DNA from: Bacteroidota bacterium | GTDB lineage: Bacteria; Bacteroidota; JABWAT01 | DNA length: 64,000 nt | NCBI GenBank assembly: GCA_013360915.1 | Contig: JABWAT010000001.1 | Location: 532,981 to 596,980 of the forward strand | Direction of reading: 5' to 3' | In this document: positions 3,161 to 28,681 of the stretch, piece by piece | Layout of the letters: every line of letters begins with the position of its first letter | Numbering within the stretch: the stretch's first letter is position 1 | The notes under the pieces: generated by a model | What the model was told of the DNA's origin: nothing | The model's input: the letters and a program-made list of their open reading frames with translations, nothing else | The model's database searches: none | Program-made: the position numbers and the translations under genes

Positions 3161-3183
3161 GGTTTTATCAACTTTGTAAAAGG
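3161..3183. promoter_or_regulatory. Operator-like palindrome, copy 1 (imperfect)
   Basis: GGTTTTATCA-ACT-TTGTAAAAGG: the left arm matches the locus consensus GTTTTATCA fully, the right arm is degenerate. Centre near 3172, about 24 bp from copy 2. Supported mainly by its neighbours. Confidence 0.5.
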
Positions 3184-3185
3184 CT

Positions 3186-3206
3186 TGTTTATCTTTTTGA
3201 TAAAGG
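3186..3206. promoter_or_regulatory. Operator-like palindrome, copy 2
   Basis: TTTATC-N5-GATAAA perfect inverted repeat (3188-3204), the same spacing as the TTTATCA-N3-TGATAAA consensus with one mismatch next to the centre. It lies upstream of the symporter gene. Confidence 0.65.
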
Positions 3207-3215
3207 CCGTTTTGT

Positions 3216-3238
3216 GGTTTGATCAAAATGATAAAACC
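3216..3238. promoter_or_regulatory. Operator-like palindrome, copy 3
   Basis: GGTTTGATCA-AAA-TGATAAAACC, a 10-3-10 dyad with a single mismatch between arms. It shares the TGATAAAAC arm with the sites at 8621-8651 and 28661-28681. Confidence 0.7.
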
Positions 3239-3392: not shown

Positions 3393-6011
3393 TTAAAACC
3401 TGATTGGTTTTTCGGGTTGGGCCAGGGTTCGGAACTGCAACTGCGCTCTGAGGTCCGTTTCGGAGAGATCAGATGTAAACAAAACGGTTTTCTTTTCACC
3501 CGGCAGCAAGTCGAACCCGTTGTCAGAAAAGCGGATCATTTTTCCGGGGACCTGCAAAAGAAGGGCCCTCAGAAGGACCGGTGAGCTGACCACCACCGAG
3601 TACTGTCCATTCCCTTCATTGTTCAGCAAGGCCTGAATGACCGGATCGGGCAGTTTCATGTTTTTCGTTTCCGTAAAAAACAGGTGCGAAGACAGGTCAC
3701 CAGCAGATGATTTCAGACGGATATCTGCCACCACAGACATGGGGTCCGCGGACCGCAGCAGTTCTTTTACCGACATACGGAGTAATTCGGTGGATTGGTT
3801 GGCCTTAAGGGTTACCGGAACCCGGATCACCTGTTCTCTGACACCATCAAATGAAACAAGATCAATCTCCAGATTCCCCTGAATCGGTTCCATCCGATCT
3901 GTCACGCCTTTCAGAATAAAAAGACTATCCTGCCGGAGGGGAATGAGACAATTTTCCCGGTACAATTCACGGGCTGTGTAATGAAGCACCTTCCAGTTTC
4001 TGTAGTAGTCCACCGAACTCCAGGAAGCCACCGGCCAGCAATCATTGATTTGCCAGTACAATGTCCCCATGCAAAACGGCTGATTTCCCCGATGTGCATA
4101 AATGGCCTGCCGGACTCCCTCGGCCTGTTGTACCTGGGCCACATACACATACGATTCAAAATCGGCGGGTGTCTTGTATTCCTGTTCCATGTAGGTCTGA
4201 ATCAGCCGGTTGCCATATTCACGGTCCCGGCGTTCATCGGCCATGCACCGCTGATGAGACAGCATGACTTCTGAATGCAGGTGCCGGTCTTCGGGTTTGG
4301 TGAAGGCTTCAATCGCTGCCATTTCAGGATAAGACTGGAATCCGTATTCGCTGACGAACCGGGAAACATTCTGATGGTACCGGCTGAACGGTTCTTTGCC
4401 ATGCCAGACTCCCCAATAATGAATATCACCGGTTTCATATCCCTTGCCAGCAAAACCAGCCACCGGACTGGATGGTGTGTAAGCACGGGCCGGATCTGCT
4501 TCTGCAATGGCTTGTGGAATGGTCTGATCAAACAGCCGTGCATAATCAGCTTCATAAATGGCCTGTGTGCCGGCATCGTATTTCTCCTTCCAGCCCCAGG
4601 CTTTCCAGGAAATCTCGCATTCATTGTTTCCGCAGTAGAGAGCCACACTCGGATGGTTTCTGATCCGGGTCACATTGTCAATCACTTCCTGCCGTACACT
4701 GGCCAGGAACGTACTGTCTGCGGGATACATGCCGCAGGCAAACATCATATCCTGCCAGACAAGGATTCCCTTTTCATCGCAAACCTGATAAAAATCATCG
4801 GTTTCGTAGATTCCTCCCCCCCACACCCTGAGCATGTTCATATTGGCATCCACCGCATCCTGAACAATCGATTCATACCGGTCTCGGGTCACCCGTGACT
4901 GGAAATTATCCTGTGGAATGTAATTCGCTCCTTTCATAAAAACCGGTCTGCCGTTAAGCCGGATAAAAAACGAACGGCCCAGTGAATCGGGTTCACGCAC
5001 CAGTTCCAGAGACCGGATGCCAATGCGGGTTTTGCGGGCATCGGTGACCCCGGTTTTCGTTTTCACAATGACCACATGATCGGTAAGAGAAGGCTTACCA
5101 AGTCCGTTGCTCCACCACAGATCGGGGTTTTCCAGTACACCATCCAGATTGAGGATGGTGGATCCTGGTTCCAGGTCAGCCTCCCGGGTGGCAAGTTCCT
5201 TTCCATCAACCTGAACCGATATGGTCACGGTTTCTGGTTTGACGGTCTGAATGGTGACCGCTGTTTTTATGGTTGCCTCTTCCCCGGAAACAACCGGTGT
5301 GGTTACATAGACATTTTCGACCCGGAATCCGGACCAGGATTCAATATAAACCGGCCTCCAGATACCAGAGGTAACCAAACGTGGTCCCCAATCCCAGCCG
5401 AAATGAAATTGTGCCTTCCGGTTATAAACCGCCACCATGGTATCGGCCTGATCATTGTTTGGAAACGCCTGCAACCGGAAAGGCGCTGTTTTCCACTTCG
5501 GATAGGATTCATCAAATACATTTCTGAACCGGATCTGCAGTTCATTTTCGCCAACCCGAACCAATGGTTTCAGGTCAACCTTCCAGGTTCGGAACATGTT
5601 GTCGGTAGTCAGAACAGTATCTCCATTCAGCAACACGTCTGTATGGGTATCCAGTCCGTTAAAAACCAGCATCAGATGATCGGCTTCAATCTGTTCAGTG
5701 GTAATCCGGAACTGCGTCCGGTAAATCCAGTTCCGGTATCCGATCCACTGAAGTTGCTTTTCATTCAGCCCGAAGAATGGATCGGGAATCCGGCCGGCAG
5801 ACAGTAAATCGGTATGAACAGAACCAGGAACCGTGGCAGGAAGCCAGGATGAATCACTTTCCATCCGGAATTCCCAACCGATGGTCAGTTCCTGACGGGA
5901 AATGGTAGAAACGATTGGATCGGGCGAGCAGGCAGTCAGTCCGGCGGCCAGCGACATCAGAAGCGCTGAAAAATACCGGTACATACGGGAGGATTTTTTT
6001 GCGGATAACAT
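3393..6011 (-). CDS. GH2 beta-mannosidase, lipoprotein
   Basis: Hydrolyses non-reducing beta-mannosyl residues from mannooligosaccharides. An 872-residue protein with a GH2 sugar-binding domain, Ig-like domain and TIM barrel. The acid/base Glu is in LYCGNNECEISW (about residue 464) and the nucleophile in FVSEYGFQSYPE (about 555). I chose the ATG at 6011 because GGAGAA precedes it by nine bases. A longer reading frame to 6080 lacks such support. The signal LLMSLAAGLTAC ends in a lipobox, so it is probably membrane-anchored. It begins 25 nt after the GH26 stop and is the last gene of unit C. Confidence 0.92.
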   Translation of the reverse strand: MLSAKKSSRMYRYFSALLMSLAAGLTACSPDPIVSTISRQELTIGWEFRMESDSSWLPATVPGSVHTDLLSAGRIPDPFFGLNEKQLQWIGYRNWIYRTQFRITTEQIEADHLMLVFNGLDTHTDVLLNGDTVLTTDNMFRTWKVDLKPLVRVGENELQIRFRNVFDESYPKWKTAPFRLQAFPNNDQADTMVAVYNRKAQFHFGWDWGPRLVTSGIWRPVYIESWSGFRVENVYVTTPVVSGEEATIKTAVTIQTVKPETVTISVQVDGKELATREADLEPGSTILNLDGVLENPDLWWSNGLGKPSLTDHVVIVKTKTGVTDARKTRIGIRSLELVREPDSLGRSFFIRLNGRPVFMKGANYIPQDNFQSRVTRDRYESIVQDAVDANMNMLRVWGGGIYETDDFYQVCDEKGILVWQDMMFACGMYPADSTFLASVRQEVIDNVTRIRNHPSVALYCGNNECEISWKAWGWKEKYDAGTQAIYEADYARLFDQTIPQAIAEADPARAYTPSSPVAGFAGKGYETGDIHYWGVWHGKEPFSRYHQNVSRFVSEYGFQSYPEMAAIEAFTKPEDRHLHSEVMLSHQRCMADERRDREYGNRLIQTYMEQEYKTPADFESYVYVAQVQQAEGVRQAIYAHRGNQPFCMGTLYWQINDCWPVASWSSVDYYRNWKVLHYTARELYRENCLIPLRQDSLFILKGVTDRMEPIQGNLEIDLVSFDGVREQVIRVPVTLKANQSTELLRMSVKELLRSADPMSVVADIRLKSSAGDLSSHLFFTETKNMKLPDPVIQALLNNEGNGQYSVVVSSPVLLRALLLQVPGKMIRFSDNGFDLLPGEKKTVLFTSDLSETDLRAQLQFRTLAQPEKPIRF

Positions 6012-6036
6012 ACAGGTGATTTCTCCATCAGATAAG

Positions 6037-7167
6037 TCAGTGACCGGGAGGTTGATAAAGGCGCGGTACTTCGGAACCATTCAGTATATCGGGTTTTTGC
6101 ATCAGCCTGATAAAATCGGCAGAGGCCCGATGGCCCGGATACGGAACATAGTGGTGCTTTTTATCGGCGTTTCGCCAGAACATGACAAAAGAAATGGCAA
6201 CCGACTCTGATGTGATTTGCGGATACAAGGTTTGTGTAAACCAGGTTGAATCGGGAATTCCTTCCAATCCGGTCTCGGTCAACGCGGCAAGTTTTCCACG
6301 TTCCTCTGCAATCCTCGAAAGTATTCTGAGTTTTTTCCTAACACCTTCCAGCCCCGCCCCATCTGGTCCGAAATCCCAGTAATTATCCATACCAATCAGA
6401 TCGGTCAAATCATCGCCCGGGTAGCGCTCAAGGTAGTCTTCTTCAGAGTTAAAGCGGCAATCCGGACTGAATGCATACAGAAACTGATGCACTTCCCTGA
6501 TATCCCTCAGGTAGGTGACCGTTTCATGCCATAGTTGTTTAAACTCTTCCGGTGTGCAAAAACGGGCTCCCCACCAGAACCAGTTTCCATCCATTTCATG
6601 ATACGGTCTGAAGATGACCGGAATGGGAGTTCCACCCTCCGTTTTCAACTGGAGAACCCAGGCTGCAATCCGGTCCAGTTGCTGACGGTATTGATCGTGA
6701 TGGCTTCCGCCTTTCAGAATGGCTTTTACCGCCAGCGTGGTATCGTAAAAACTGCCACCAGTGACGGGATTTCCGTTATGCCAGCAGAAAATATTGACCC
6801 CGCCTGCATTCCAGGCCTGTCTGACCAGTGTTTTCAGTTGACCGGCTGATGCGGTATCCCTGCCAGATGCAATGCCGGCAAAATCCCAGCCATAAACGGC
6901 CGGATGGGATCGGGTTACCAGCTTCCAGTCGGACTGATCAGGCACTCCCTTCCATCCGACTCCGTATGCAGTCGGATCCTGGTGACCAACCAATATGGCT
7001 TTACCCTGCAGGTTTGTGAGATTTTGAAACAGGTATCGGGTTTCGGGGGTGGAAAGAGAATCCACCAGCCGGATATCCAACCGGCCCCGGGAGGAGGTTA
7101 CCGGAGGGGTTGAACATCCGCTGATGAACATCGCGATCAACAAACCGGCAGCAGCAATCCATCTCAT
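6037..7167 (-). CDS. GH26 beta-mannanase, lipoprotein
   Basis: A 376-residue protein with signal peptide and lipobox MFISGC. GH26 barrel: acid/base Glu191 in FRPYHEMDGNWFWWG and nucleophile Glu298 in ALTETGLEG. The WFWWG and HQDPTAYG motifs are typical of mannan-active GH26 enzymes. It cleaves internal or terminal mannobiosyl units of beta-1,4-mannan, but endo versus exo action cannot be read from sequence. The gene starts 3 nt after the GH5 stop, so the two are translationally linked. Confidence 0.92.
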   Translation of the reverse strand: MRWIAAAGLLIAMFISGCSTPPVTSSRGRLDIRLVDSLSTPETRYLFQNLTNLQGKAILVGHQDPTAYGVGWKGVPDQSDWKLVTRSHPAVYGWDFAGIASGRDTASAGQLKTLVRQAWNAGGVNIFCWHNGNPVTGGSFYDTTLAVKAILKGGSHHDQYRQQLDRIAAWVLQLKTEGGTPIPVIFRPYHEMDGNWFWWGARFCTPEEFKQLWHETVTYLRDIREVHQFLYAFSPDCRFNSEEDYLERYPGDDLTDLIGMDNYWDFGPDGAGLEGVRKKLRILSRIAEERGKLAALTETGLEGIPDSTWFTQTLYPQITSESVAISFVMFWRNADKKHHYVPYPGHRASADFIRLMQKPDILNGSEVPRLYQPPGH

Positions 7168-7170
7168 TTG

Positions 7171-8496
7171 CTATCGCTGCCGGGGAAAAGATTCTAACCG
7201 TTTACTGTGGTTCAGGATTAACTGAAGGGTGGATTCATCTCCGGCAAATACCGAGTTCAAACCCTGGGGTTCCTGCGGAGGGTCGCCCACAAACGGATCA
7301 CCGGGTTTCCAGATGGCATCCGGACGAGTTGCCGACGCCACTCCTCCCCAGGCCCAGATATTGGTTCCGGCCAGAGGGGATCCGGTTTCGAGACTGTCTT
7401 CAATCAGGTTGAAAATGAAATAAAAGTATTGATCACGATAGGTTACCGGGGTACCCAACCCGGTGAGTTCTCCATCACGACCCAAACCAAATTCTTCGAG
7501 AACAAGTGGTTTGTTGAGTTTCCGTGCCATGGCAATATGCGAATTGATGTAGTCAGCGGCCCGTTCCCTGGTTCGCGGAAACGTGGTTTCCATACTGTCT
7601 TTTTTATACCAACCCCAGTTTTTGGCCCACAAATGAAGGGTGGCATAATCGATGGCGGGCGAATCGTGTGCATCGAGGAAAACATCTTCACGCAGAATCG
7701 ATCCCACCGTGCCTTCCGACCCGGTTGAGACCAGATGATTCGGATCAAGGGTTTTGATGTAACGGGCAGTCTCATCAATCCATTTTACATAGGAAGGAAC
7801 ATTCACACTGCCATCCTGATCGGTGCCCGGTCTGGGTTCGTTGGCCAGTTGCCAGGCCATGATCACCGGATCGTCTTTGTATGGAAGTCCGGTTATCGAA
7901 TTCACGCGGCCAACCAGCCGGTCAATGGTTGCCCTGTATAATTGCTGAGCCTGCGGATTGGAATAAAAGCCAGCAGAAAAATTCATGAATCCGCGCCAGT
8001 CACCGAGTGAAGGATCTGGCATGTGCCCGGCCCCGGTCCATTCGTTGTAAACAGCCATTCCACCCGACCACTCCCAATAATTGGTGAGGTAAAGGACGGC
8101 CTTCATGTTTCGCTTTCCCATTTCTGAAAGAAGAAAATCGAGACCAATGGCAAGGCTGTCGTTAAATACACCGGCTGCAGGCTGAAAGACTGGCTTTACT
8201 GATTTCTGATGTGAAGCTGCTTCTGCCGAAGCAAGAATACGTAGGTTGGTCATTCCGTTTGCAGAAAGAAGATCCAGTTCCCTGATCAGACGATCACGGT
8301 TACCGGCCGGACTCTCCTGCCCCAGCCATGCGCCATACCACAGATTGGCTCCTGCAAACCGGTAGGGTTTTCCATCCAGGAAAAAACCGGTACCGGAAAC
8401 CGTGATGAAACCAGGTTTAACCGTGGAAACTGGTTCCGAACACCCGGCACATGCCAGCAGGCCGATCAACAGCAGGGTCCCGATACGGTTGTTCAT
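7171..8496 (-). CDS. GH5 endo-beta-1,4-mannanase (GH5_7-like), lipoprotein
   Basis: A 441-residue enzyme. I placed the start at the ATG at 8496 (MNNRIGTLLLIGLLACAGCS), which has GGGGAGA five bases upstream and gives a lipoprotein signal. The frame stays open to 8544. GH5 features: FFLDGKPYRFAGANLWYG near residues 38-54, acid/base Glu220 in WQLANEPRPG and nucleophile Glu335 in LVLEEFGLG. These match mannanases of subfamily 7. First gene of unit C. A perfect long palindrome lies about 140 bp upstream. Confidence 0.9.
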   Translation of the reverse strand: MNNRIGTLLLIGLLACAGCSEPVSTVKPGFITVSGTGFFLDGKPYRFAGANLWYGAWLGQESPAGNRDRLIRELDLLSANGMTNLRILASAEAASHQKSVKPVFQPAAGVFNDSLAIGLDFLLSEMGKRNMKAVLYLTNYWEWSGGMAVYNEWTGAGHMPDPSLGDWRGFMNFSAGFYSNPQAQQLYRATIDRLVGRVNSITGLPYKDDPVIMAWQLANEPRPGTDQDGSVNVPSYVKWIDETARYIKTLDPNHLVSTGSEGTVGSILREDVFLDAHDSPAIDYATLHLWAKNWGWYKKDSMETTFPRTRERAADYINSHIAMARKLNKPLVLEEFGLGRDGELTGLGTPVTYRDQYFYFIFNLIEDSLETGSPLAGTNIWAWGGVASATRPDAIWKPGDPFVGDPPQEPQGLNSVFAGDESTLQLILNHSKRLESFPRQR

Positions 8497-8620
8497 GCAT
8501 TCTCCCCAAACAGACAGCCGTACAAACTGCAAGGATTGTACCAAACAGGAAATGTGGGATTAAAAGCGGTTTTTACCGGGAAGACTCAGCAGGGCCGGAT
8601 TATCAGAATTATAAAGGGGG

Positions 8621-8651
8621 GAAAAGTTTTATCATAATGATAAAACTTTTC
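8621..8651. promoter_or_regulatory. 31-bp perfect palindrome, operator of GH5 unit
   Basis: Arm GAAAAGTTTTATCA (8621-8634), centre TAA, and the exact complement TGATAAAACTTTTC (8638-8651). It contains the locus consensus GTTTTATCA-N3-TGATAAAAC. It overlaps the stop codon of the GH28-like gene and lies upstream of the GH5-GH26-GH2 unit, so it could act both as operator and as a 3'-end hairpin. Confidence 0.75.
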
Positions 8652-10180: not shown

Positions 10181-11083
10181 TTATTTTGATGGGTTAATGG
10201 AATTCCATGCACGCGCCGCCTGAATTCCCATATCCAGATAGGCAGGCGAATCGTAATGGTAAGGATCGGAATAGCCATAGGAATCGGTCGTGGTAACGAG
10301 AACGGCATGCCGGTCCGATTCCACATACCGTTTCTGAGCCTCACGGACCACATCGCCCCACTTCCAGACCTTACCCGATTCATGCTGATGGGACTCTGAA
10401 ATGCGGATGATCACCACCGGAAGGTCATCGGTACGAAGCGATGCACGAAACAGATCCATCATCCGCTTCAGATGAGTCTGGTATCGGTTGGCTATCTCTT
10501 CTGTAAAGGCGGCATCACTTTCACCCTGCATCCAGATAATGCCGGCGGGAATCAGTGTATCCGGTTCCCCGTCTCCATTGATATCAGCTACCGAAAGTCC
10601 ATTCCGTAAGGTTGCAAGAAAATGATCGTACTGATTGTTGCCATTTCCCTGGCGGTAATCGGGATCCCAGCATCCCCAGGTGGAGGCTGCATTGGTATCG
10701 AGTGAACTTCCCCCTTTCGGATATTTGATCAGGGCCATTTTCTGGCCGGGAAGCAACCTGTTTAATTCGCGACCGAAAGTGAGCTCCATCCCAAACTTAT
10801 CCGAGTACTGATGACTTCCGTTCCAGCCATAACCCGAACCATGGCCAGGCTGAAGTTGCACCCATTTTCCTGTTCCATTCACTGGCGCCTGATCATTTTG
10901 CATGGTCGATTGAAAAATCCAGACATCCGATAGCGTTTTTTTCAGGGAATCGGGCAAGTCAGCCACCTTTCCGAACCCTTCCATGTTGGACTGACCTCCC
11001 AGGTAAAAGAGTTTCCATTTTTCAGCGTGGCCTTCAGACATGAGGAAAATCGACAGGAGAACTGTCAGTAGTGTGTATTTCAT
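10181..11083 (-). CDS. SASA-domain carbohydrate acetylesterase (CE6-like)
   Basis: A 300-residue exported esterase (signal MKYTLLTVLLSIFLMSEGHA). YLGGQSNMEGFG holds the nucleophile Ser32, WMQGESDA is the conserved block, and DPYHYDSPAYLDMG holds the Asp/His pair. These are features of the sialate O-acetylesterase/CE6 superfamily. In this context it probably removes acetyl groups from hemicellulose so that mannanases can act. The start at 11083 is chosen for the signal peptide. An upstream ATG at 11125 would add 14 polar residues and has no ribosome site. Unit B leader gene. Confidence 0.82.
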   Translation of the reverse strand: MKYTLLTVLLSIFLMSEGHAEKWKLFYLGGQSNMEGFGKVADLPDSLKKTLSDVWIFQSTMQNDQAPVNGTGKWVQLQPGHGSGYGWNGSHQYSDKFGMELTFGRELNRLLPGQKMALIKYPKGGSSLDTNAASTWGCWDPDYRQGNGNNQYDHFLATLRNGLSVADINGDGEPDTLIPAGIIWMQGESDAAFTEEIANRYQTHLKRMMDLFRASLRTDDLPVVIIRISESHQHESGKVWKWGDVVREAQKRYVESDRHAVLVTTTDSYGYSDPYHYDSPAYLDMGIQAARAWNSINPSK

Positions 11084-11177
11084 GGGTTTAACCTGATTAT
11101 TGGTTGAAATCGCCTTGACGTTCATGCAGCGTAATCGTTTTTGGAAGAACCTTCCGGATTGAATCAGCCAATCAGGA

Positions 11178-11196
11178 CTGTATCATTTTGATAGGC
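11178..11196. promoter_or_regulatory. Operator-like palindrome upstream of esterase unit
   Basis: TATCA-TTT-TGATA perfect core (11181-11193) with partly conserved flanks, centred about 104 bp upstream of the esterase ATG and in the gap after the clan GH-A gene. A shorter match than the other copies. Confidence 0.6.
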
Positions 11197-13358: not shown

Positions 13359-13390
13359 TTTTCCTTTTACATTCAAAAACGTCACTGGTA

Positions 13391-19061: not shown

Positions 19062-22000
19062 GGGGTTTCCTTTAAATGCTCGGTTAAGGGAATCAATCGG
19101 TCTTCCACATTCCATCCTTCAACCTTGAGTTTGAATTCAGGACTGATATCAGATTCCAGATCCATGGTCACTTCACGGCTTTCTCCGGGCATCAGGCCAA
19201 TGAAATTGTCTGACCAGAAAACCGGTAAAACCCGTTCACCTGTCTTTCCGTCAATCAGGGAAAACCGGACCATCGGAGCCACTGCTGAACCTGTGTTTTT
19301 AATCTTAATTTTTCCCTGGCCACGCTTACCGGTCTGGTATGCAGATACCTGAATGCTTGTCTGACCCATGGATGCCAGATCCCGGTAATGTCCATCCGGT
19401 CGTTTCTGCCAATAAAAGTTGGAAGCCAGCACTTCACCTGCTTTTGAAAGCAACCGCAGCCGGATGAACCGGGTGGCCTCTCCATCATACTTCAAATGAA
19501 GTCCCGAAACGGATGCAGTCATGTTTTTTTCAGCAGTTATCGGATGGGTGGATTCGGAAACAATCCGGCCTGATAAATCAACCACCAGCACCTCGATCAC
19601 TCCATCTACCAAGGGTCGTTGTAAATTGTTTGAAACATGAAGCGTCCCATGCGAAGGGTGCATAAACAGATGCAGGGGAGAGGAGGCCGTTTTCATGGCA
19701 AAAAAAGCCGATGTGGGTTCGAGCCAGTAGTCATAGGTCTGACAGATCAGGGATGGCCAGGCCGGATGTGACATCCAAAGCAACACACCTGGCCCCCGGT
19801 GATATTGCCAGCTTTCCACCATTCCTTTCGGACCTTCCATGTTCATAAACCAGGCCTTGCGTGTAAAATCCTTCAGATTAACCGGCTTTCCGTAAAGGGA
19901 ATCCATGTCCCGCTGGTAAATCCGCACACGCGGTTGAGTCCAGTCATGCTTCCCCCACATGTCATTTACCGGCCAGAGAAAGCGTTCCGGCATCATGGCC
20001 TGAAAACTTTCCAGCACAGGCGGGGCCACAATGCCTTGTTCACTGTGAAAACTGGTTCCCCGGTTTTCGAAATACCAGTCGGGACTTTTGTTTTCATACG
20101 GACCCAGACCGGTAACCGGCCGGTCAGCCGAACTGGACAGGTAGTGCCGGGTATGATCGGTTTCCTGCAGCAGAACACGTAAGGCAGAATCCAGTATGGC
20201 AGGCGGATATCCTTCATTCCGACCCACCCACAATGCCACGGATGCCCGGTTCCGGCGGTTCAGGACTTTATCGCGTGCATTGGCCATGAACAGATTTTCA
20301 TCGGCAGGATGCGGACCATCCACCGGATTGGCCAGCCAGAAATCATCCCAGATTAACAGGCCGTACCGGTCACAGGCATTATAAAAGGCATCGTTTCCGA
20401 TCATGCCGACCCAATTGCGGATCATGTTGAAATTCATTTCCTTATGCAGGCGGACGGCCCGGTTAAAATCGGTATCGGAGTACCGCATCATCGATTCAGC
20501 CATGCCCCAGTTTCCACCACGAATGATCAGGGGAACCCCGTTAATCTGTAATCGCAGATGGGAATATTCGTAGAGGTAACTGAACTCACGATAACCAAAT
20601 ACCACCTGTTTCCGATCTGAGAGACCGCTTTTACCGGTTACAGAAAAAACCAGCGTGTCCAACGGCTGATTTCCATATCCATTGGGCCACCAGAGCGGTG
20701 GATTCTGAACCTTAAGAGCCGGGTGTTTTCCCGGGTCGGCACGGATCACTTTGCTTTCACCAGGATTCAGGGACAGGGGAATGGTAAATCGGAAATGGGA
20801 TGCCTGCCCGGTTAGCTCACCGGCCCAGGAAGTGGTGCCATGATTGGTAACCGTGATGGCTGTCTGAATGTTGACCTGACTGGTATCCGGAAGATCAAAA
20901 TCGGTGATAATAAGTGGATCGGATAGTGTGACTCCATCGGTGGTTTCGATCCGGACCGGTGCCCAAATTCCTGCATTCCGTCCGCGAATGGTAGGCATCC
21001 AGTTCCAACCGATGCTGGCCAGAATAGAGGGGCTATCGAGTCCGATGATTCCTCCATTGCCATCCGGATCATTCAAGTGTTGCTCGGTTACTGCTCCCGG
21101 ATTGTCATTGGGCTGAATGCGGATGGCGATGGCCACCCGTTTTCCAGGTGTGACCAACCGGCTGATCTCCATTTTTCCGCGGATGTAGGCGCCATCAACC
21201 CGTCCGGCTAACCCGCCGTTGACCCAAACTTCCGCCTTCCAGTTAATTCCATCCAGATGCAGCCAAACCAGTTTATTTTTCCAGGCTTTGGGAGATTCAA
21301 ATTCAGTCCGGTACCAGAACGGAGCCGTAAAAAACCAATCCGAAATCATCAGCTGCTGATCGCCAAATACCGGATCGGGAATGGCACCTGCAGCCAGGTA
21401 GTCGGTTAGCGGCGTCCCGGGAACGGTTGCAGGTATCCAATCTTCTTCAAAAAAACCTGGTGTCGATAGTTGTACCCGATCTGCCCGGATAAATGACTCC
21501 CGCTTCACCTGCCAGACCGAACCGTTCAACTCGGGCCCATTGCTGGTGAATCTGACTTTTCCCGTCGGTCGGATGGAGGGTCTGACAGGTTTTCCATACA
21601 CCTTCAGCGTATGAATTTCCGGATGCCGGGAAGAACCGGAAAGGGAAATCCGCACAAATCTCGCAGGAACCTCCGAAAAGCGTACGGAATCCGTTTTCCC
21701 CGACACCCTGTTTTGGGTTCCGACAGAAATCCACTCTTCTGGTTGATTCGGATGTCCCTTGCCGGATACTTCAATCCTGAACGATTCCGGCTGTTCGTTT
21801 CCCCACCCGATCATCACCGATGAAACCGGGGTGATTGAACCCAGATCGGTGTAAATCCATCCCTCACTCGTTTTGGATTTCCAGTAAGTGGAAGGCCAGG
21901 GATCGGTGGTCAGATGACCCGTGTGATCATAGTCGGCTGCTCCCGACTGCCACACCGCCCGGTTCAGTGCCACATTCATGTCGGTCTGTGTAAATCCCAA

Positions 22001-22069
22001 AACAGGCAACAGCAATGCAACGGCAACAATGAAAAGCCAATGACGGGTTAAGGAAGAGCGATTTCTCAT
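19058..22069 (-). CDS. GH2 enzyme with N-terminal F5/8C module
   Basis: A 1003-residue secreted protein. Signal peptide to ~29, discoidin module ~33-160, then GH2 domains. Acid/base Glu619 in ALWVGRNEGYPP and nucleophile Glu677 in FHSEQGIVAPP. The segment LLWMSHPAWPSLICQTYDYW again points to the endo-beta-mannosidase/CsxA branch. It differs strongly from the other GH2 genes here, so the two are paralogues with possibly different linkages. ATGA overlap with the reductase gene upstream. Confidence 0.85.
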   Translation of the reverse strand: MRNRSSLTRHWLFIVAVALLLPVLGFTQTDMNVALNRAVWQSGAADYDHTGHLTTDPWPSTYWKSKTSEGWIYTDLGSITPVSSVMIGWGNEQPESFRIEVSGKGHPNQPEEWISVGTQNRVSGKTDSVRFSEVPARFVRISLSGSSRHPEIHTLKVYGKPVRPSIRPTGKVRFTSNGPELNGSVWQVKRESFIRADRVQLSTPGFFEEDWIPATVPGTPLTDYLAAGAIPDPVFGDQQLMISDWFFTAPFWYRTEFESPKAWKNKLVWLHLDGINWKAEVWVNGGLAGRVDGAYIRGKMEISRLVTPGKRVAIAIRIQPNDNPGAVTEQHLNDPDGNGGIIGLDSPSILASIGWNWMPTIRGRNAGIWAPVRIETTDGVTLSDPLIITDFDLPDTSQVNIQTAITVTNHGTTSWAGELTGQASHFRFTIPLSLNPGESKVIRADPGKHPALKVQNPPLWWPNGYGNQPLDTLVFSVTGKSGLSDRKQVVFGYREFSYLYEYSHLRLQINGVPLIIRGGNWGMAESMMRYSDTDFNRAVRLHKEMNFNMIRNWVGMIGNDAFYNACDRYGLLIWDDFWLANPVDGPHPADENLFMANARDKVLNRRNRASVALWVGRNEGYPPAILDSALRVLLQETDHTRHYLSSSADRPVTGLGPYENKSPDWYFENRGTSFHSEQGIVAPPVLESFQAMMPERFLWPVNDMWGKHDWTQPRVRIYQRDMDSLYGKPVNLKDFTRKAWFMNMEGPKGMVESWQYHRGPGVLLWMSHPAWPSLICQTYDYWLEPTSAFFAMKTASSPLHLFMHPSHGTLHVSNNLQRPLVDGVIEVLVVDLSGRIVSESTHPITAEKNMTASVSGLHLKYDGEATRFIRLRLLSKAGEVLASNFYWQKRPDGHYRDLASMGQTSIQVSAYQTGKRGQGKIKIKNTGSAVAPMVRFSLIDGKTGERVLPVFWSDNFIGLMPGESREVTMDLESDISPEFKLKVEGWNVEDRLIPLTEHLKETP

Positions 22070-23067
22070 CCGGGTAGCCGCAAGATTGTTTCAATCGACG
22101 CCAGTTCTGCATCGGTAAGGCTACCGGCAGCTACCGATGCCACACAATCATCAATCTGACTGGTTTTACTGGCTCCGATCAGTACGGATGTCACCACCGG
22201 CGACCGTAACAGCCAGGCGATGGCCAACTGGGCAAGGGTCTGTCCGCGTTGAATGGCTATTTCATTCAGTTTCCTGATTTTTTCCAGTTTTTCCGGCGTG
22301 ATGGTGCTGGTCTGAAGGTAACCATGTGCTTTGGCTGCACGGGAATCTTCCGGGATACCTTTCAGATATTTATCGGTCAACAATCCCTGTGCAAGAGGCG
22401 AAAACACAATCAAACCAGTTCCGGTTTTGGCCAGAACATCGAGCAGGCCGCCTTCCACCCACCGGTCAAACATGGAATACCGCGCCTGATGAATCAGACA
22501 TGGGGTCCCGAGTGATTTCAGAATGGAAATCGCCTCTTCTGCTTTACCGGCCGGATAGTTGGAAATGGCAGCATACAATGCTTTTCCCTGCCGCACGGCC
22601 TGATCAAGCGCCATCATCGATTCTTCCACAGGTGTGTCGGGATCCGGGCGGTGATGGTAAAAAATGTCCACATAATCCAGACCCATCCGCTTCAGACTCT
22701 GATCCAGACTGGCAAGCAGATATTTCCGCGAGCCGAAATTGCCATACGGCCCCGGCCACATGTCATAACCGGCTTTTGTGCTGATGACCAGTTCATCGCG
22801 GTACGGTTTAAAATCCGCAGACAGAATCCGTCCGAAGTTTTCCTCTGCTGAACCCGGGGGCGGTCCGTAATTGTTTGCCAGATCGAAGTGGGTGATTCCC
22901 AGGTCAAAGGCACGCCGGACCATGGCCCTTCCGGTCTCATACAAATCATAGCCACCGAAATTGTGCCATAAACCCAGCGAAATGGCTGGCAAAACCAGAC
23001 CAGATTTTCCCGACCGGCGGTAGGGCATGGAATCATACCGGTCAGAGGAAGGCAGATAATGACTCAT
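22066..23067 (-). CDS. Aldo/keto reductase (YghZ/AKR14-like)
   Basis: A 333-residue cytoplasmic NADPH-dependent reductase. Catalytic tetrad visible: Asp62 and Tyr67 in FDLANNYG, Lys98 in STKAGYD, His in IFYHHRPD. Sequence features such as THFDLANNYGPPPGSAEENFG match the YghZ group that reduces glyceraldehyde-3-phosphate and other aldehydes. It is embedded between two secreted glycosidases with 4-nt overlaps on both sides, so it is part of the mannan operon. Its substrate there, perhaps a released sugar or aldehyde, is unknown. Confidence 0.88.
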   Translation of the reverse strand: MSHYLPSSDRYDSMPYRRSGKSGLVLPAISLGLWHNFGGYDLYETGRAMVRRAFDLGITHFDLANNYGPPPGSAEENFGRILSADFKPYRDELVISTKAGYDMWPGPYGNFGSRKYLLASLDQSLKRMGLDYVDIFYHHRPDPDTPVEESMMALDQAVRQGKALYAAISNYPAGKAEEAISILKSLGTPCLIHQARYSMFDRWVEGGLLDVLAKTGTGLIVFSPLAQGLLTDKYLKGIPEDSRAAKAHGYLQTSTITPEKLEKIRKLNEIAIQRGQTLAQLAIAWLLRSPVVTSVLIGASKTSQIDDCVASVAAGSLTDAELASIETILRLPG

Positions 23068-24560
23068 CGGGTCACCTCCATAACAGGGCTGTATCCGCTG
23101 TCACCCGATTGATTCACTCCTTTAATCCGGTAGTAGTAAGTTTTACCGGCAACGGCTGTTTCATCGGTGTATAAAATCAGTGCTTCTGATGCCTCGGGAC
23201 TGTATTCCCATTTCGTCACGTCCTGCAGAATGGAATCATGAAGTCCATCACGCAACACACTGAACGGACCAGCAGGTTTTTCAGCTCGTTCAATGGTGTA
23301 TGAACTGGCTCCCGTAGAACCACGCCAGGTAAACCCATGCCCGTGTTTCATCAGAATAGGGGCAGGAGAAGGCTTATCAACGGCAGGAACAGGCAATCCG
23401 CGGATTGCATAGGCTTCCTGACGAAGCAGATCCAGTGTGCGGATTTCCTCATAGATAAATCCGGCAGGAAAGCCAGGCACGTGGTAGGAATTCACCGGCG
23501 TTCCGCCTTCATTGTGATAATACCATCCCCCATCGCGGCGGTGACTGCGGATACTCCAGATCAGTCCACCCACAATCTGTTCCTCACGGATTGTTTTCAT
23601 GAGCTCACGCAGGTTTTCAATACCACCCAAACCAAATTCATCGACCATGAGCGGTTTCTTTCCCTTGCATTCTGCTCTTCCCTGCTTTGCAAAGGGAGCC
23701 AGTTGCCAGGGCCTTCCGCCCATCTTGTTCCAGTATTCGTACAGGTGATCGCTGATAATGTCGATGTTCGGATCCTCAAGAAAATCCTTGCGGTCGGCAC
23801 CACCGGCTTCCATGATCAGGTGATTGGGATCCACTTTCCTGATGTAGGCCGCCATCTCCTTGCTCCAGGCCAGAATTTTCGGAGACCAATCGTCCCATTT
23901 TAAACCCCGGTCACCGGGATAGCTACCAAATTCATTTCCCAATTGCCAGCACAGAATGGCCGGATCTTCCTTATACAACAGTCCGTTAACCGTATTCCGA
24001 CGGTTCAGTATGAAATCCAGAAAATGCCGGAAATCGGCCTTTACTTCTTCGTCGGTCCAGAACGATCCTTTTGGTTTTCCGGAAAGCGCCGAAAATTCAT
24101 CCACCCCTCGTATTCCACCAAAGGACTGGGAGGCAATAAACGGAATGATCATCCGGACGTTGTATTCATGACCCAGCGCAATCACCCGGTCCAGACACTG
24201 AAAGGCCTCTTCGTTATAGGTTCTCCGGGCCGTGATGTAAACCGGCATGCCATTATCTTCAGGGGTATAAACCGAGAGAGAAAAGGTTCGCGTCGCCAGC
24301 CCCCCCATCCGTCTGATTCCATCGAGGATATCCCGTATTTCATATTCATCAGGAAACCGGTTAGCCCGGTCTTTCCGTATCTGTGATTCATTCTGCTGTA
24401 TGTTCGGTGCGGCCAGTCCGAAAAACCGGAATTCCTTGTCACCATCCACCAGAATATCCCCTTTCCGTTTAATGATGTTGCCAGAGAAACCGTGGTCGCC
24501 GGCAACGGAAACCGACGAGCAGGCAAGGAGAAGCAGGAAGGCAGTCGTTGTGAATTTCAT
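23064..24560 (-). CDS. GH5 mannanase-like enzyme with C-terminal fibronectin-like domain
   Basis: A 498-residue exported protein. The start at 24560 gives signal MKFTTTAFLLLLAC, possibly a lipobox. The GH5 barrel carries acid/base Glu210 in CWQLGNEFGSYPG and nucleophile Glu308 in LMVDEFGLGG, the pattern of eukaryote-like endo-mannanases and related GH5 groups. A fibronectin type III-like domain fills ~400-498. It differs clearly from the GH5 at 7171-8496, so probably a distinct subfamily. It lies 54 nt after the esterase stop and overlaps the reductase start by 4 nt. Confidence 0.85.
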   Translation of the reverse strand: MKFTTTAFLLLLACSSVSVAGDHGFSGNIIKRKGDILVDGDKEFRFFGLAAPNIQQNESQIRKDRANRFPDEYEIRDILDGIRRMGGLATRTFSLSVYTPEDNGMPVYITARRTYNEEAFQCLDRVIALGHEYNVRMIIPFIASQSFGGIRGVDEFSALSGKPKGSFWTDEEVKADFRHFLDFILNRRNTVNGLLYKEDPAILCWQLGNEFGSYPGDRGLKWDDWSPKILAWSKEMAAYIRKVDPNHLIMEAGGADRKDFLEDPNIDIISDHLYEYWNKMGGRPWQLAPFAKQGRAECKGKKPLMVDEFGLGGIENLRELMKTIREEQIVGGLIWSIRSHRRDGGWYYHNEGGTPVNSYHVPGFPAGFIYEEIRTLDLLRQEAYAIRGLPVPAVDKPSPAPILMKHGHGFTWRGSTGASSYTIERAEKPAGPFSVLRDGLHDSILQDVTKWEYSPEASEALILYTDETAVAGKTYYYRIKGVNQSGDSGYSPVMEVTR

Positions 24561-24614
24561 AATCAATCCGGATTGAGTGAATAAAATGTGATACACTGAT
24601 TGGGAAAACACCGG

Positions 24615-26417
24615 CTACCTGACCAGAAGCAGTCGTTGAGTTCTGACCTGATTTCCGGCCTGAAACACGGCCACATACCATCCGGATGCCAGTTGACCTG
24701 CATTCAGATGATAAACAGACTGACCAGCCGGGCGTGTTATCTGATCCATAAACACAAGCTGCCCGGTCACCGAATACAGGCGGATGGAAATGGTGCCTGA
24801 ATGAAGAAGCCGGAGCGGAATAGATGTTTCCGGGTTAAACGGATTCGGATAGGGTGCACCTACCACAAACCGATCTGGTTGTGAGCTTCCTGATTCAACC
24901 GAAACCGGAGTAACCGGATGTGCAAAGACTTCCAGTTCATGTATTTGGATTCCGGCACCAGGAACAGATGAGCCAAGACTGAGAACCCGAAGGTATCTGA
25001 ACTCACCACTTAATCCGGAAATGCTGTCAATGCCACCCGTTGAAGTGATTCCGGCCCTGATGTTTTTTAATTGGTTGGAAGTGGTTACCCCTTGCAGATT
25101 ATAACTGGTTGCATGAACCGACCCCCAGTTAATCAGGACAGTCTTTATCTGATATGCTTTCCCGAAATCGACCTGAAACCAGGGCGAAATCCCTGCGCCT
25201 GCTTCCCAGAAGGTTGAATCAAGGCCATCCACCCCAAGTGATGGATCGGACAAACGGACCGTGGATGATGCTTTTGCAGGTCGCTGATAGGCCCGGTTGA
25301 TTTGGTCGGATGGTAACCTGAATACGGTGATGGTATCGGTTGTGGTCACCTGACCCGTTGCTTTAAGAATATAATGAGTGGTGGAATCCGGCTTTACCCA
25401 CATGAAACCATCGGATTCAACCGTTTTATCATCTATAAGCACCGCCGACCCGGTTGCGGTTGTCCAGGAAATCAGGGCCGAATCCTGATAGCCAAGATCC
25501 AGATAGCGTGGAAAAACCGTGAAAGAGGTGATCGTTCCGGGCGCCAGAAACCTCAGAAAAAGCCGTGCGGTATCGGGGTGTTCCCCTGCAGTGATAAGGG
25601 TAAAAGTGGTATCAGAGGAAAGGGTGATGTTAACCGTGCCGGCCTCTTCAACAGGCACACCATTCACCTTCGGCGCAGAACCGGGTGTGGTCAGCCAGTT
25701 AATGGTGATATTTTCATTCAATTCAGCAGCTTTTGCCGATGAAGTAAACCAGCGGATATAGCCGGAAGGGGATGACAAAATGGAATCTCTTGCAACACCG
25801 GCCATGAAAGCATACCCGTTTGTATTCGGATGAATCCCATCAGTAAACCATCCTTCTTTATCCAGCATTGCTGTATAAAAATCGATGGTCTCCACACGGG
25901 CCATCTGCATGACTGAATCGATTTTGGGGAGCAATTCATTCAGGAGAATAGCACCGGAAATTCCGAAACCATCCTGAAAAACAGGAACCGGCCGGCAAGC
26001 ATAAATCTGAATCTGCGGATTGACTTCCCTGAACTCGCCGATGATTTGCAGGTAATCGGAAACAAACTCGTTCTGGTAGATCCAATTCTGGGGTTTGGTA
26101 TCATTCGTTCCCAGTTTGATAATCAGAATATGTGGGTTAAAGGCCAGCGCGTTCTGATAAGCCGCTTCCTTACGAATGGGAAAATCACCTTTGTTTAACA
26201 GGGTCCGGCTTCCAACCCCGAAGTTTTTAACCGAATAACCGCTCCCCAGCAGGCTGCCCAGTTGTTGCGGGTAGGCTGAAGCATCGTTGCTGCCCTGTGT
26301 GATGGAATTGCCTATGCAGGCCACACGGAGCGGTTCATCCGGCTGGGCCCTGAGTCCAACCGGACTCAGGATCACCAACCCGATAACAATGGCCGGAACA
26401 AGGTAAACCGGTTTCAT
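24615..26417 (-). CDS. SGNH esterase with F5/8C module and type IX tail
   Basis: A 600-residue secreted protein. SGNH domain at ~28-215: Ser38 in CIGNSITQG, Asn in KLGTNDTKP, Asp193/His196 in FTDGIHPN. Two beta-domains follow, then a discoidin module at ~375-495, and a Por-type sorting domain from APYPNPFNPETSIPL to RLLLVR. Likely a surface deacetylase acting on acetylated mannan. The acyl group is an inference. The ATG overlaps the GH26 stop by one base (TAATG). Confidence 0.85.
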   Translation of the reverse strand: MKPVYLVPAIVIGLVILSPVGLRAQPDEPLRVACIGNSITQGSNDASAYPQQLGSLLGSGYSVKNFGVGSRTLLNKGDFPIRKEAAYQNALAFNPHILIIKLGTNDTKPQNWIYQNEFVSDYLQIIGEFREVNPQIQIYACRPVPVFQDGFGISGAILLNELLPKIDSVMQMARVETIDFYTAMLDKEGWFTDGIHPNTNGYAFMAGVARDSILSSPSGYIRWFTSSAKAAELNENITINWLTTPGSAPKVNGVPVEEAGTVNITLSSDTTFTLITAGEHPDTARLFLRFLAPGTITSFTVFPRYLDLGYQDSALISWTTATGSAVLIDDKTVESDGFMWVKPDSTTHYILKATGQVTTTDTITVFRLPSDQINRAYQRPAKASSTVRLSDPSLGVDGLDSTFWEAGAGISPWFQVDFGKAYQIKTVLINWGSVHATSYNLQGVTTSNQLKNIRAGITSTGGIDSISGLSGEFRYLRVLSLGSSVPGAGIQIHELEVFAHPVTPVSVESGSSQPDRFVVGAPYPNPFNPETSIPLRLLHSGTISIRLYSVTGQLVFMDQITRPAGQSVYHLNAGQLASGWYVAVFQAGNQVRTQRLLLVR

Positions 26418-27532
26418 TATTGATACATGGCGGGCAGATCTTCCAGAAACAAGGTCATGGGATCTGCTTCAAATTTTTTAAAATCAGGAACCGACGGATG
26501 TCCGGGATAAGGCCCGAAATGATGTCCGTAATCGGCATTTCTCCAGACCAGCATGTAGGTTATCCGACGGGCATACGGGTCGGCGAGGATGGGATTCAGC
26601 CATTTTTCGGTCCAGAAAACCGGATCCTTGATCATGTTGGACCCACCTTCAGCGAGAGCCGGAATTTTACCGCGCTTTTCAGCAATCCGGACCATCAGAC
26701 TCAATTGTTTAATCCGGTCCGGAGTCATCTCGTTGTAATAATCCACCGAAATGATATCAACAAAGTCATCACCCGGGTACCGGCTCAGCCAGGTGGCTTC
26801 ATCAGGGATCTTGCCCCAATTGTATGCATAAATCAGGTTATGAACACCCTTCACATCCCTCAGGTAAGTTACGGTAAACTTCCAGAGCGCGATATATTCT
26901 TCGGGCGTACAGACATTCACACCCCACCAGAACCAGTTTCCTTCGTTTTCATGCCATGGCCTGAAAATAACCGGAACCAACGTTCCGTCTTCTGTTTTCA
27001 GAGATAGAAAAAAGGAAGCCACCCGATCAAGCCAGAGTTTTAGCAAGTCATGTTTCTCGCCACCGGGAAGAATGGCATACAGGGCGGGGGTCACATCCCA
27101 GGCCGTTTTCCTGGTAACCGGATGGTCGGGGTGCCAGGAAACGGTGTTCACGCCCCCCCGTTTATACGCTTCAATGATCCACTTCTTCATCAGTTTGAAG
27201 GAAACCGTATCAATATTATACCAATTGCCGTGTTCCAGCTTGCCAATTTCCCAGCCAAACATGCCGGGATATTTACCCACCGCATCCTTTACATCCGACC
27301 GGAATTCCTCTGCATCCCAGGTCATCCCGTAGGCAGTGGCATCCTGATGCCCGAATAAAATTCCTTTTCCAGAGAGGGCCTTCAGATTGGTGAATAGTGC
27401 ACGGGTTTCAGTTGTGGCCTTATTATCTGTCAGATCAGATTGGGCTTCGGCCGGCCCTGCTGTGCAGGACAAAAATGAAATGGCAAGCAGGCAGGTGACT
27501 AACCTTTGTCGATTTATCATCAGTTTCCTCAT
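26417..27532 (-). CDS. GH26 beta-mannanase/mannobiohydrolase
   Basis: A 371-residue exported GH26 protein. Acid/base Glu195 in FRPWHENEGNWFWWG and nucleophile Glu295 in ALAEGGSNM. FGHQDATAYGMTW is near residues 60-72. Signal LLAISFLSC could be a lipobox. It resembles single-domain mannobiose-releasing GH26 enzymes of Bacteroidota, but product size cannot be judged here. The listed ATG is adjacent to the kinase stop. The ATG at 27520 has AGGA at better spacing and may be the real start. Confidence 0.9.
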   Translation of the reverse strand: MRKLMINRQRLVTCLLAISFLSCTAGPAEAQSDLTDNKATTETRALFTNLKALSGKGILFGHQDATAYGMTWDAEEFRSDVKDAVGKYPGMFGWEIGKLEHGNWYNIDTVSFKLMKKWIIEAYKRGGVNTVSWHPDHPVTRKTAWDVTPALYAILPGGEKHDLLKLWLDRVASFFLSLKTEDGTLVPVIFRPWHENEGNWFWWGVNVCTPEEYIALWKFTVTYLRDVKGVHNLIYAYNWGKIPDEATWLSRYPGDDFVDIISVDYYNEMTPDRIKQLSLMVRIAEKRGKIPALAEGGSNMIKDPVFWTEKWLNPILADPYARRITYMLVWRNADYGHHFGPYPGHPSVPDFKKFEADPMTLFLEDLPAMYQ

Positions 27533-28495
27533 TTAATCAGCAATTTCCCGCCAGATCAGGGCAGCAGCGCCCAGGATGGCAATATTTCCATCGGCTAAGC
27601 CGGAGAGTTTAATTTTTATTTTATTCCGCCAGAGAGAATGAACATGGGCTTCAAAGGATTCACGGGTTGGTTTCAGAATCAGATCACCTGCCTTTGCCAA
27701 TCCTCCTACCAGGATAATGGCTTCCGGTGCCGTATAGGCCACTGCATCGGCCAGACCCATTCCCAAAATATCGCCTGTTCGTTTAAAGGCCTCCAGAGCA
27801 AGCTCATCACCATTCTGAGCGGCTTCAGCAATTCGCTTTCCATTAAGATCGGTAAACGGAATGGCCCTCAGTTCACTGGTGATGTTTAAATCTGCCATCA
27901 GTTCAACGGCTGTCCGTCTGATGCCCGAGGCAGACGCATATGTTTCCAGACATCCGCGGCGACCGCACCCGCACTGGCGACCACCTCTGATCACCACGGT
28001 ATGCCCCACTTCACCCGCAAACCCGTCAAACCCATAAATCATATCACCATTGGCCACAATTCCGCTGCCTAAACCGGTACCAAGCGTAATGACCATGAAA
28101 TCTCTGAGCCCCTGTGCCCCTCCGAATTGTAACTCGCCAAAAGCGGCAGCATTTGCATCATTCGTCAGGCGGATGGGAACAGAATACCATTGCTTCATTT
28201 TTTCAGCATACTCAATGGTTCCCCAATTCAGGTTGGGCGGATTAACGATGGTACCCTGATAGAAATTTCCATTCGGAGCCCCGATCCCGATTCCCTCAAG
28301 GGAATAAGTGGCATGCATCCGGTCCCAGGCCTCCTCAATGGAGTAATGGAGCCGCTCCAGATGCAATTCACCTGGTTCGAAAGCCCGGGTGGGAAACGAG
28401 GCTTCATAATGAACCTTTCCATACATATCGACAAAGCCAAAATTGGTGGTCGTTCCACCAATATCCACGCCGAGACAAACCCAGGTTTTTTCCAC
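27533..28495 (-). CDS. ROK-family hexokinase (glucose/mannose kinase candidate)
   Basis: A 320-residue cytoplasmic kinase. GVDIGGTTTNFG is the phosphate-binding loop, LTNDANAAAFGE carries the catalytic Asp, and GHTVVIRGGRQCGCGRRGC is the ROK zinc site. No N-terminal helix-turn-helix, so it is an enzyme rather than a ROK repressor. It likely phosphorylates glucose and/or mannose released inside the cell, as RokA does in B. fragilis. Leader gene of the ten-gene unit A, with a palindromic operator about 170 bp upstream. Confidence 0.9.
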   Translation of the reverse strand: MEKTWVCLGVDIGGTTTNFGFVDMYGKVHYEASFPTRAFEPGELHLERLHYSIEEAWDRMHATYSLEGIGIGAPNGNFYQGTIVNPPNLNWGTIEYAEKMKQWYSVPIRLTNDANAAAFGELQFGGAQGLRDFMVITLGTGLGSGIVANGDMIYGFDGFAGEVGHTVVIRGGRQCGCGRRGCLETYASASGIRRTAVELMADLNITSELRAIPFTDLNGKRIAEAAQNGDELALEAFKRTGDILGMGLADAVAYTAPEAIILVGGLAKAGDLILKPTRESFEAHVHSLWRNKIKIKLSGLADGNIAILGAAALIWREIAD

Positions 28496-28660
28496 AATTC
28501 ACCTTGTTTTTATAGTTGGTTACTTTTCACCACACGTAAGCTATGCAGGAATTGTGCCGAGCTACCTGATTTTAAGAACAGCCAAAAAAAGCATGCAGAA
28601 CCGCAGAAAGATCCGCAAAGGGTTTCTTTAGTCAGGTAGGTGTTTACTAAATCAATAAGA

Positions 28661-28681
28661 ATTTTATCAAATTGATAAAGT
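28661..28681. promoter_or_regulatory. Operator-like palindrome upstream of unit A
   Basis: TTTATCA-AAT-TGATAAA perfect dyad (28663-28679), with AT flanks matching the consensus seen upstream of the other three units. It lies about 170 bp before the kinase start. Confidence 0.7.

Follow-up and report, generated by a model that had tools for sequence, protein, structure and literature searches.

We analysed a 64,000-nucleotide stretch of DNA (the window; C1:532981-596980) from the 3.65 Mb, 51-contig genome of a Bacteroidota bacterium (G000), in which a palindromic element, TTTATCA-N3-TGATAAA, stands in front of units of mannan genes. We consider it very likely that this dyad is an enhancer, or upstream activating site, for an NtrC-family regulator, which would belong to a sugar-responsive sigma-54 three-component system. 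The observed basis consists of the sites, the promoter elements that accompany them, gene order, protein domains, the presence of rpoN and an arrangement conserved in two families, that of the window's genome (f1) and a second one (f7). The first-pass annotation had described the element as a palindromic operator. A shared, promoter-linked dyad is indeed present, but it is more likely that the dyads are activator enhancers upstream of sigma-54 promoters than repressor operators. This reading gives an orphan palindrome its place in a testable circuit, for which there is a candidate regulator gene, a sensor, a sigma factor and a set of promoters.

The dyad in the window and in its genome

The pattern used for scanning is 17 bp long, with a 7-3-7 layout, an odd centre and variable central bases. 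Perfect dyads are found at 8628..8644, before the GH5-GH26-GH2 unit, and at 28663..28679, before the long ROK-kinase/GH26/GH5/GH2 unit. The promoter of the GPH symporter/GH130 unit contains two dyads with one mismatch each (3188..3204 and 3219..3235) and a weak third with two mismatches (3164..3180, matrix score 8.0). Equivalents of the dyads at 3188 and 8628 are present in the relatives G001-G003. Six sites had been proposed to fit the pattern; their coordinates are correct, but the fit is exact in only two, the others having one, one, two and three mismatches. That a dyad precedes all four units holds for the strong sites at three of them, while the acetylesterase/GH28-like unit has a doubtful, low-scoring site with three mismatches (11179..11195) and no sigma-54 element nearby. 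Similarly, the long operons are free of internal sites at up to one mismatch, but a two-mismatch dyad at 6098 falls within the GH26 gene. An extra weak dyad (8599..8615, two mismatches) forms a second site in the GH5-GH26-GH2 promoter.

At up to three mismatches the window contains 15 matches, compared with a mean of 3.15 and a maximum of 8 in 100 dinucleotide shuffles. We also scored the window with a matrix made from 21 sites of eight other genomes, the window's own genome being left out of the training. The sites at 28663, 8628, 3188 and 3219 took ranks 1-4 with scores of 28.8 to 21.1, and the next score, 11.1, was a tie between 11179 and a site at 52697 inside a called gene. Scores of at least 14 were observed four times, with 0.05 expected from 20 shuffles. 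The dyads are real, with 3164 and 11179 the weak members of the six.

Across the genome we found 12 sites with no more than one mismatch and none in a reversed control; at up to two mismatches the counts were 61 and 8. Nine of the 12 are intergenic, one, on contig C7, falls right where a DUF5060/GH5-like gene begins, and two are deep in genes. Dyads equally common within genes, which the first-pass annotation had named as evidence against a regulon, are thus not what is seen at this stringency. Glycan-related genes are downstream of eight of the nine intergenic sites: a solute-binding protein gene (C1:515678), a TonB operon led by the gene of a secreted CBM9 protein (two dyads, C1:530920 and 530938), the GPH/GH130 unit (two), the GH5-GH26-GH2 unit, the ROK unit and, on C18, a GH97 gene. 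The remaining intergenic site is found on C8, upstream of the sole LacI-family gene of the genome. For the strong sites the proposed mannan regulon is coherent and reaches beyond the window. Weaker dyads occur as a set before a secreted GH26 gene on C7. Two-mismatch sites were considered as further regulon members and rejected, because 32 of the 39 examined (49 counted in the genome) lie in called genes; at low stringency the dyad is consequently mostly background. At high stringency it is a promoter element of glycan genes.

Two observations concern the sites on C7. The perfect dyad that overlaps the start of the DUF5060/GH5-like gene (stretch L018, 5318-7141) has a sigma-54-like element (12.0) upstream of it, which is the reverse order. 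In addition, the dyads that separate a histidine kinase gene from the GH26 gene have a CCAGCAG-type low-complexity repeat right next to them (stretch L019, 5500-5640).

Sigma-54-like promoter elements downstream of the dyad

When the promoters of four genomes were aligned, another conserved block, TTTGGCACAATTTGTGA and similar, became visible downstream of the dyad. This block reads as GG-N10-G(C), which would be a sigma-54 -24/-12 element. On the minus strand of the window such elements are predicted at 3110..3125 (TGGCACAATTTGTGAA, score 11.6, 38 bp from the nearest dyad, in a block conserved in G001-G003), at 8528..8543 (TGGTACAATCCTTGCA, score 15.4, 55 bp from the nearest dyad) and at 28544..28559 (CGGCACAATTCCTGCA, score 15.3, 103 bp from the dyad). 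Our promoter test counted elements scoring at least 7.9 and lying 30-110 bp gene-ward of the dyad, over 34 dyad-gene pairs from nine genomes. A sigma-54-like element was present on the gene-ward side in 22 of the 34 pairs and on the far side in none; control anchors in the same loci gave 45 of 852, and shuffled sequences 70 of 3400. The matching elements lie at +38 to +103 from the dyad. In the window's own genome the promoters that pass are those of the GPH, GH5, ROK, CBM9 and C7-GH26 genes.

The sigma factor gene itself, rpoN (PF04552), is present in the window's genome and in all three family relatives. Typical -24/-12 elements have been reported for the sigma-54 of Bacteroidetes in the available text of a study on Flavobacterium psychrophilum (PMC9723704). 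Separately, a near-perfect sigma-54 element, TGGCACCGTTCTTGCA, precedes the GH2 mannosidase gene of G002 and G003 (L109 ~940-955 and L102 ~8074-8089), with no dyad of up to two mismatches close by.

A binding protein, kinase and regulator beside the mannan locus

The first-pass annotation noted that no regulator gene lies in the window and looked for one elsewhere with its own site. We identified such a gene ~17-22 kb to the left of the window, in a trio on the minus strand (C1:511292-515595) encoding a solute-binding protein, a histidine kinase and a response regulator. The order, dyad followed by binding protein, kinase and regulator, is identical in all four family members (G000-G003), where the dyad has 1, 2, 1 and 1 mismatches, respectively. 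The proteins contain, in turn, an SBP_bac_1 domain, a HATPase_c domain, and a receiver with Sigma54_activat and lid domains. One N-terminal hydrophobic segment is found in the binding protein and two in the kinase. The trio is likely to comprise a sugar-binding protein that is extracellular and anchored in the membrane, a kinase that crosses the membrane twice and a sigma-54 activator of the NtrC type.

The AAA+ sigma-54 interaction domain of the regulator matches PF00158 with an E value of 8.5e-72. This match, at C1:511739-512242, sits within the mannan locus, and its counterparts in G001, G002 and G003 are also among mannan genes. The receiver domain (PF00072, E 9e-12) contains a conserved aspartate, residue 63, which we infer to be the phosphorylation site. 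The loop that contacts sigma-54 reads EKGAFTGAQ in the window's genome, with an intact GAFTGA that is also found in G001, and GSFTGA in G002 and G003. The same substitution is reported for LevR in the available text of PMC3162934. The regulators of G001-G003 are 73-74% identical to that of the window's genome, and the last helix is nearly invariant. Models for NtrX, NorR and TIGR02915 align through to the C-terminal end of the protein, and the NtrX-type chain 5m7n (listed as nitrogen assimilation regulatory protein) aligns over residues 12-484. Using hhalign, the C-terminus matched those of 17 other activators (95%), a set from which two trio-like paralogues had been left out.

A paralogous kinase/NtrC-type regulator pair is encoded on C18 of the same genome (stretch L253, 7538-10521), beside another TonB/secreted-protein unit; no binding-protein gene is present in the stretch read.

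Conservation of the arrangement

The three family relatives, G001-G003, belong to another genus of f1. At up to one mismatch they contain 6, 16 and 16 sites, against 2, 1 and 1 in the controls. In the stretches read, their intergenic dyads precede orthologous units, namely GPH/GH130, GH5-GH26, the secreted CBM9 protein, a 2-epimerase-like gene and the binding-protein operon; some other dyads are inside genes. Dyad counts were also made in 60 relatives, and outside the family the counts and the controls both vary widely and are uninformative alone.

Homologues of the kinase are found in 41 of 394 sampled genomes of the phylum, the window's family included. Beyond the family we read stretches from 11 other genomes with a kinase match, together with the paralogous pair of the window's genome. 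Binding protein, kinase and regulator occur together in 10 of these 11; the simple gene caller did not resolve the eleventh (L254). In six of the genomes, all of them from f7, the regulator is at least 70% identical and has the same last helix. A dyad with up to one mismatch is present in the 16-17-kb trio stretch of five of the six, and the sixth (G360) has it on a different contig, upstream of the orthologous CBM9-TonB-PorV operon. With 30 shuffles for every stretch, the shuffled versions contained 0 to 0.03 sites per stretch.

The most complete picture comes from G061, where all three perfect dyads of the genome fall within ~35 kb of the trio. Together with two one-mismatch dyads they precede units with the following sigma-54 scores: CBM9-TonB, 5.7; epimerase, 10.1; GH5-like, 14.1; GPH-GH130, 5.3; a unit containing GH5, GH26 and GH2, 13.3; and the trio, 11.2. 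The scores of 5.7 and 5.3 are under the cut-off though both elements read TGGCATTATTTATG. Perfect dyads are also located at the trio in G187 (two of three, the third having no sigma-54-like element nearby) and in G344 (one of two). In both G061 and G344 the trio has a dyad plus a sigma-54 element in front.

Four loci of divergent paralogues (L253, L255, L256 and L257) contain no dyad at up to one mismatch. Three of these four loci contain, beside the divergent trios, degenerate versions of the dyad such as CTTATCAATTTAATAAG and ATTATTAAATTGATAAT (L255 at 6585, 6608 and 11227; L256 at 7233; L257 at 6802), which are possibly the boxes of paralogous regulators.

A model for mannan-responsive activation

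In the mechanism we propose, a manno-oligosaccharide would be captured by the anchored protein on the outer side of the inner membrane, and the loaded binding protein would then switch the kinase, which would phosphorylate the regulator. The phosphorylated regulator would assemble on one to three dyads and use ATP to open the sigma-54 RNA polymerase poised 38-103 bp further downstream at the -24/-12 promoter. The outcome would be that the transporter, the secreted glycosidases and the phosphorolysis genes are turned on together.

This suggests that sigma-54 may be able to run a whole secreted polysaccharide-degradation regulon in Bacteroidota-type bacteria. The kinase homologues in 41 of the 394 genomes and the variant dyads beside divergent trios also hint at a lineage-wide class of glycan sensors, in which each paralogous set of binding protein, kinase and NtrC-type activator would have its own polysaccharide and its own variant of TTATYA-N3-TRATAA. 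We regard this extension as conceivable, and would lean slightly against it at present. If true, sigma-54 would take the place of SusR or hybrid two-component regulators in controlling secreted polysaccharide degradation in Ignavibacteria/Kryptonia-like bacteria. The model also offers a predictive rule: the genes that follow a dyad with a -24/-12 element 40-100 bp further on would point to the signal of each related trio.

Several points weigh against the enhancer model. Each of the steps described, together with the ligand, direct binding and induction, is something we infer from sequence features. The Fisher value for the promoter test, 1.7e-18, is descriptive, because the cut-off of 7.9 was set after earlier scores had been seen and the 34 pairs are not independent (they include orthologous promoters, and five dyads between divergent genes were counted twice). 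A cruder test, using whole upstream regions and mechanical gene starts, gave a weaker result. At a score of at least 7, elements were found in 4/7 dyad promoters compared with 18/103 others in the window's own genome, and in 12/19 compared with 24/141 in the relatives. At a score of at least 9 the own-genome counts were 4/7 and 8/103, and those of the relatives (5/19 and 15/141, p 0.07) were not significant; nor were they at 11 or above (2/19 and 10/141). Canonical GC at -12 is found in some elements only, and several end in GT or GA. Four of the nine dyad promoters of the window's genome (SASA, trio, GH97 and LacI) have no sigma-54 element, and the dyad of the trio is without one in all four family members. 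The trio of the window's family stands on the same strand as the TonB operon and behind a GH26-type gene of that operon, a gene order that makes read-through possible.

The proteins and their distribution raise further points of this kind. The C-terminal domain of the regulator matched no Pfam helix-turn-helix model even at E 10, and as a separate profile it found no fitting solved structure in a PDB profile search. For its putative Fis-type identity we are left with the end-to-end NtrX/NorR-type alignments and the hhalign match. The kinase matched no HisKA model. Dyads beside the trio are seen in two families only, f1 and f7, and in a genome of another family (G119, 55% GC, regulator 68% identical) the stretch has no dyad. 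Finally, up to 16 other PF00158 matches are present in the genome (17 in total, several of them weak AAA+ matches rather than activators).

Alternative regulators and explanations

These 17 matches leave room for another sigma-54 activator of the genome to bind the dyads, with the trio merely one of its targets. We give this explanation a small chance. It is the activator of the trio that sits in the mannan locus in all four family members, and in the second family the dyads accompany the closest orthologues of this regulator, while the four loci of divergent paralogues are without a dyad at the same stringency.

A LacI-family repressor was the candidate first favoured, as the only LacI gene of the genome (C8:8380-9456) has one of the 12 best dyads ~230 bp upstream and LacI proteins often control sugar genes. 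We dropped it since the orthologues carry a different palindrome beside the start, and now think it very improbable that the dyad is its operator. In the window's genome the gene has its own even, TTGGAAG-type palindrome beside the start (GTGGAAGCCTTTCCAA), and a TTTGGAAGCGCTTCCAAA-type palindrome recurs in each of G001-G003 and in 11 of the 15 more distant homologues examined, the exceptions being L156, L157, L158 and L033. The recognition helix is nearly identical in most of the homologues with this palindrome. In G001-G003 the stretches read around the LacI orthologues contain no TTTATCA dyad, while the mannan genes of these genomes do have dyads. Because the gene carries a different conserved palindrome, LacI is probably not the regulator, a rejection that is weakened by the genome-wide frequency of the TTGGAAG palindrome, which is little above control in seven genomes. 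The layout of the site argues in the same direction, since LacI motifs are typically even with a central CG and the dyad here is odd, 17 bp long and variable at its centre. In the available text of one survey, 1251 of 1303 LacI motifs are even palindromes and 1173 have the central CG (PMC4052901). Some 4% of LacI regulators have odd motifs, so the odd centre alone does not exclude LacI.

The palindrome of the LacI gene deserves mention in its own right. A conserved even palindrome of TTGGAAGC type stands beside the LacI-family gene start in L020 (6430-6460, on C8), L027-L032, L037, L150-L155 and L160. This lineage apparently has a separate LacI regulon, with this palindrome as its autoregulatory operator.

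Two other classes that had been expected, GntR and ROK, fared no better than LacI with its own palindrome. A GntR regulator was rejected, as no PF00392 match was found in the genome at E 0.001. A ROK regulator was rejected as well; with open frames of 315, 321 and 252 amino acids, all three ROK matches are too short for a kinase plus a DNA-binding domain. With one LacI-family gene and no GntR-domain gene detected, the genome has few classical sugar regulators for a glycan degrader.

A repressor of yet another family (TetR, LysR, LytTR or other) could bind the dyad near the sigma-54 promoters. Compared with tet-type half sites, which it resembles, the dyad has two additional spacer bases; it is also compatible with T-N11-A. 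Crp/Fnr sites are even-centred, unlike the odd-centred dyad. On C7 a LytTR-type regulator and kinase are divergent from the dyad-bearing GH26 gene. In G003 a tandem pair of dyads (L115, 3633-6796) has a sensor-kinase/response-regulator unit on one side and, on the other, a secreted-protein gene that has a sigma-54-like element scoring 8.2. The response regulator there is about 31% identical to the C7 LytTR regulator, and at ~31-33% identity the two pairs are not close relatives of each other, for which reason they were rejected as the regulator. No gene of these other families was seen with a conserved dyad, TetR, LysR, MarR, AraC and Crp genes not having been counted genome-wide. We regard such a repressor as highly improbable.

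It is scarcely credible that the palindromes act in RNA, as hairpins or terminators, instead of being bound by a protein: some arms do extend into long hairpins (8621-8651; C1:515678) and several dyads closely follow a stop codon, but dyads also occur between divergent genes (L105, L106, L249 and L275) and the 17-bp core with its variable centre is kept across genomes.

Relation to known regulatory systems

Sugar or binding-protein three-component systems include ChvE-VirA, XylFII-LytS-YesN, HptA-HptSR and LuxP-LuxQ-LuxO, and resemble the trio in that the histidine kinase takes its input from a binding protein. One of their regulators, LuxO, is likewise of the NtrC type. To our knowledge the sugar systems use AraC- or OmpR-type regulators, not sigma-54, and have not been described for mannan loci of Bacteroidota-type bacteria. 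The SusR, hybrid two-component and extracytoplasmic function (ECF) sigma/anti-sigma systems of Bacteroidetes likewise co-regulate TonB-linked glycan uptake and glycosidases; we know of none that relies on a sigma-54 enhancer.

NtrC-type two-component systems are textbook examples of regulation. The NtrC box of the enterobacterial NtrB-NtrC system is, like the dyad, a 17-bp 7-3-7 palindrome upstream of a -24/-12 promoter, and in both cases a receiver-AAA+-helix-turn-helix regulator (the last domain putative here) has a partner kinase. The half-site differs, and the system described here has a sugar-binding protein, a membrane kinase and polysaccharide-gene targets. The NtrC consensus is given as TGCACCAnnnTGGTGCA and TGGCACnnTTnTTGC in the available text of PMC8743547.

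Sigma-54 control of sugar use is reported for activators of the LevR/CelR/ManR type in Firmicutes, including mannose-family phosphotransferase system (PTS) genes, in the portions available of PMC3162934, PMC10864463 and PMC8262876. These activators share with the trio regulator the use of sigma-54 for sugar genes. They differ in being PTS-controlled, with a PRD domain named in PMC10864463, while here a binding protein and kinase are present and no PTS link was seen. The ManR of Thermotoga is a ROK regulator and represents a different solution (PMC3750489, in the text available). The accessible part of the Melioribacter genome paper mentions mannan enzymes and no such sigma-54 regulator (PMC3534657). 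In the literature searched, which left subscription papers mostly outside, we found no described case of the exact dyad, nor one of Bacteroidota-type bacteria with a polysaccharide locus under sigma-54. NtrC-type systems are already known, as are sugar genes controlled by sigma-54; what would be new is a mannan locus run by sigma-54 with a binding-protein/kinase trio in Bacteroidota-type bacteria.

Gene content of the mannan units

All the mannan genes described here are on the minus strand. The GPH/GH130 unit begins with a GPH-family sugar:cation symporter (1705..3072; TIGR00792, PF13347), followed by a GH130 manno-oligosaccharide phosphorylase family protein (509..1678; PF04041). The first gene of the GH5-GH26-GH2 unit encodes a GH5-like glycosidase (7171..8496), whose match to PF00150 is weak and below the cut-off; from the sequence its start is probably the ATG with first base 8496 rather than the called TTG. 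Downstream are a GH26 mannanase family gene (6037..7167; PF02156) and a GH2 beta-mannosidase-like gene (3393..6080; PF22666, PF17753). The third, acetylesterase/GH28-like, unit starts with a SASA-family acetylesterase (10181..11125; PF03629).

The long unit opens with a ROK sugar kinase of 320 amino acids (27533..28495; PF00480), and its remainder (11304..27532) includes GH26, GH5-like, GH2, aldo/keto reductase, GDSL esterase and carbohydrate-binding module (CBM) proteins. Its last gene (11304-13448) gave no Pfam match. No susD-like gene was found among the genes scanned, and a PorV/T9SS-type secreted set is present instead. Elsewhere in the window lexA (41629-42270) and recA (48196-49275) are both present, with ~6 kb between them.

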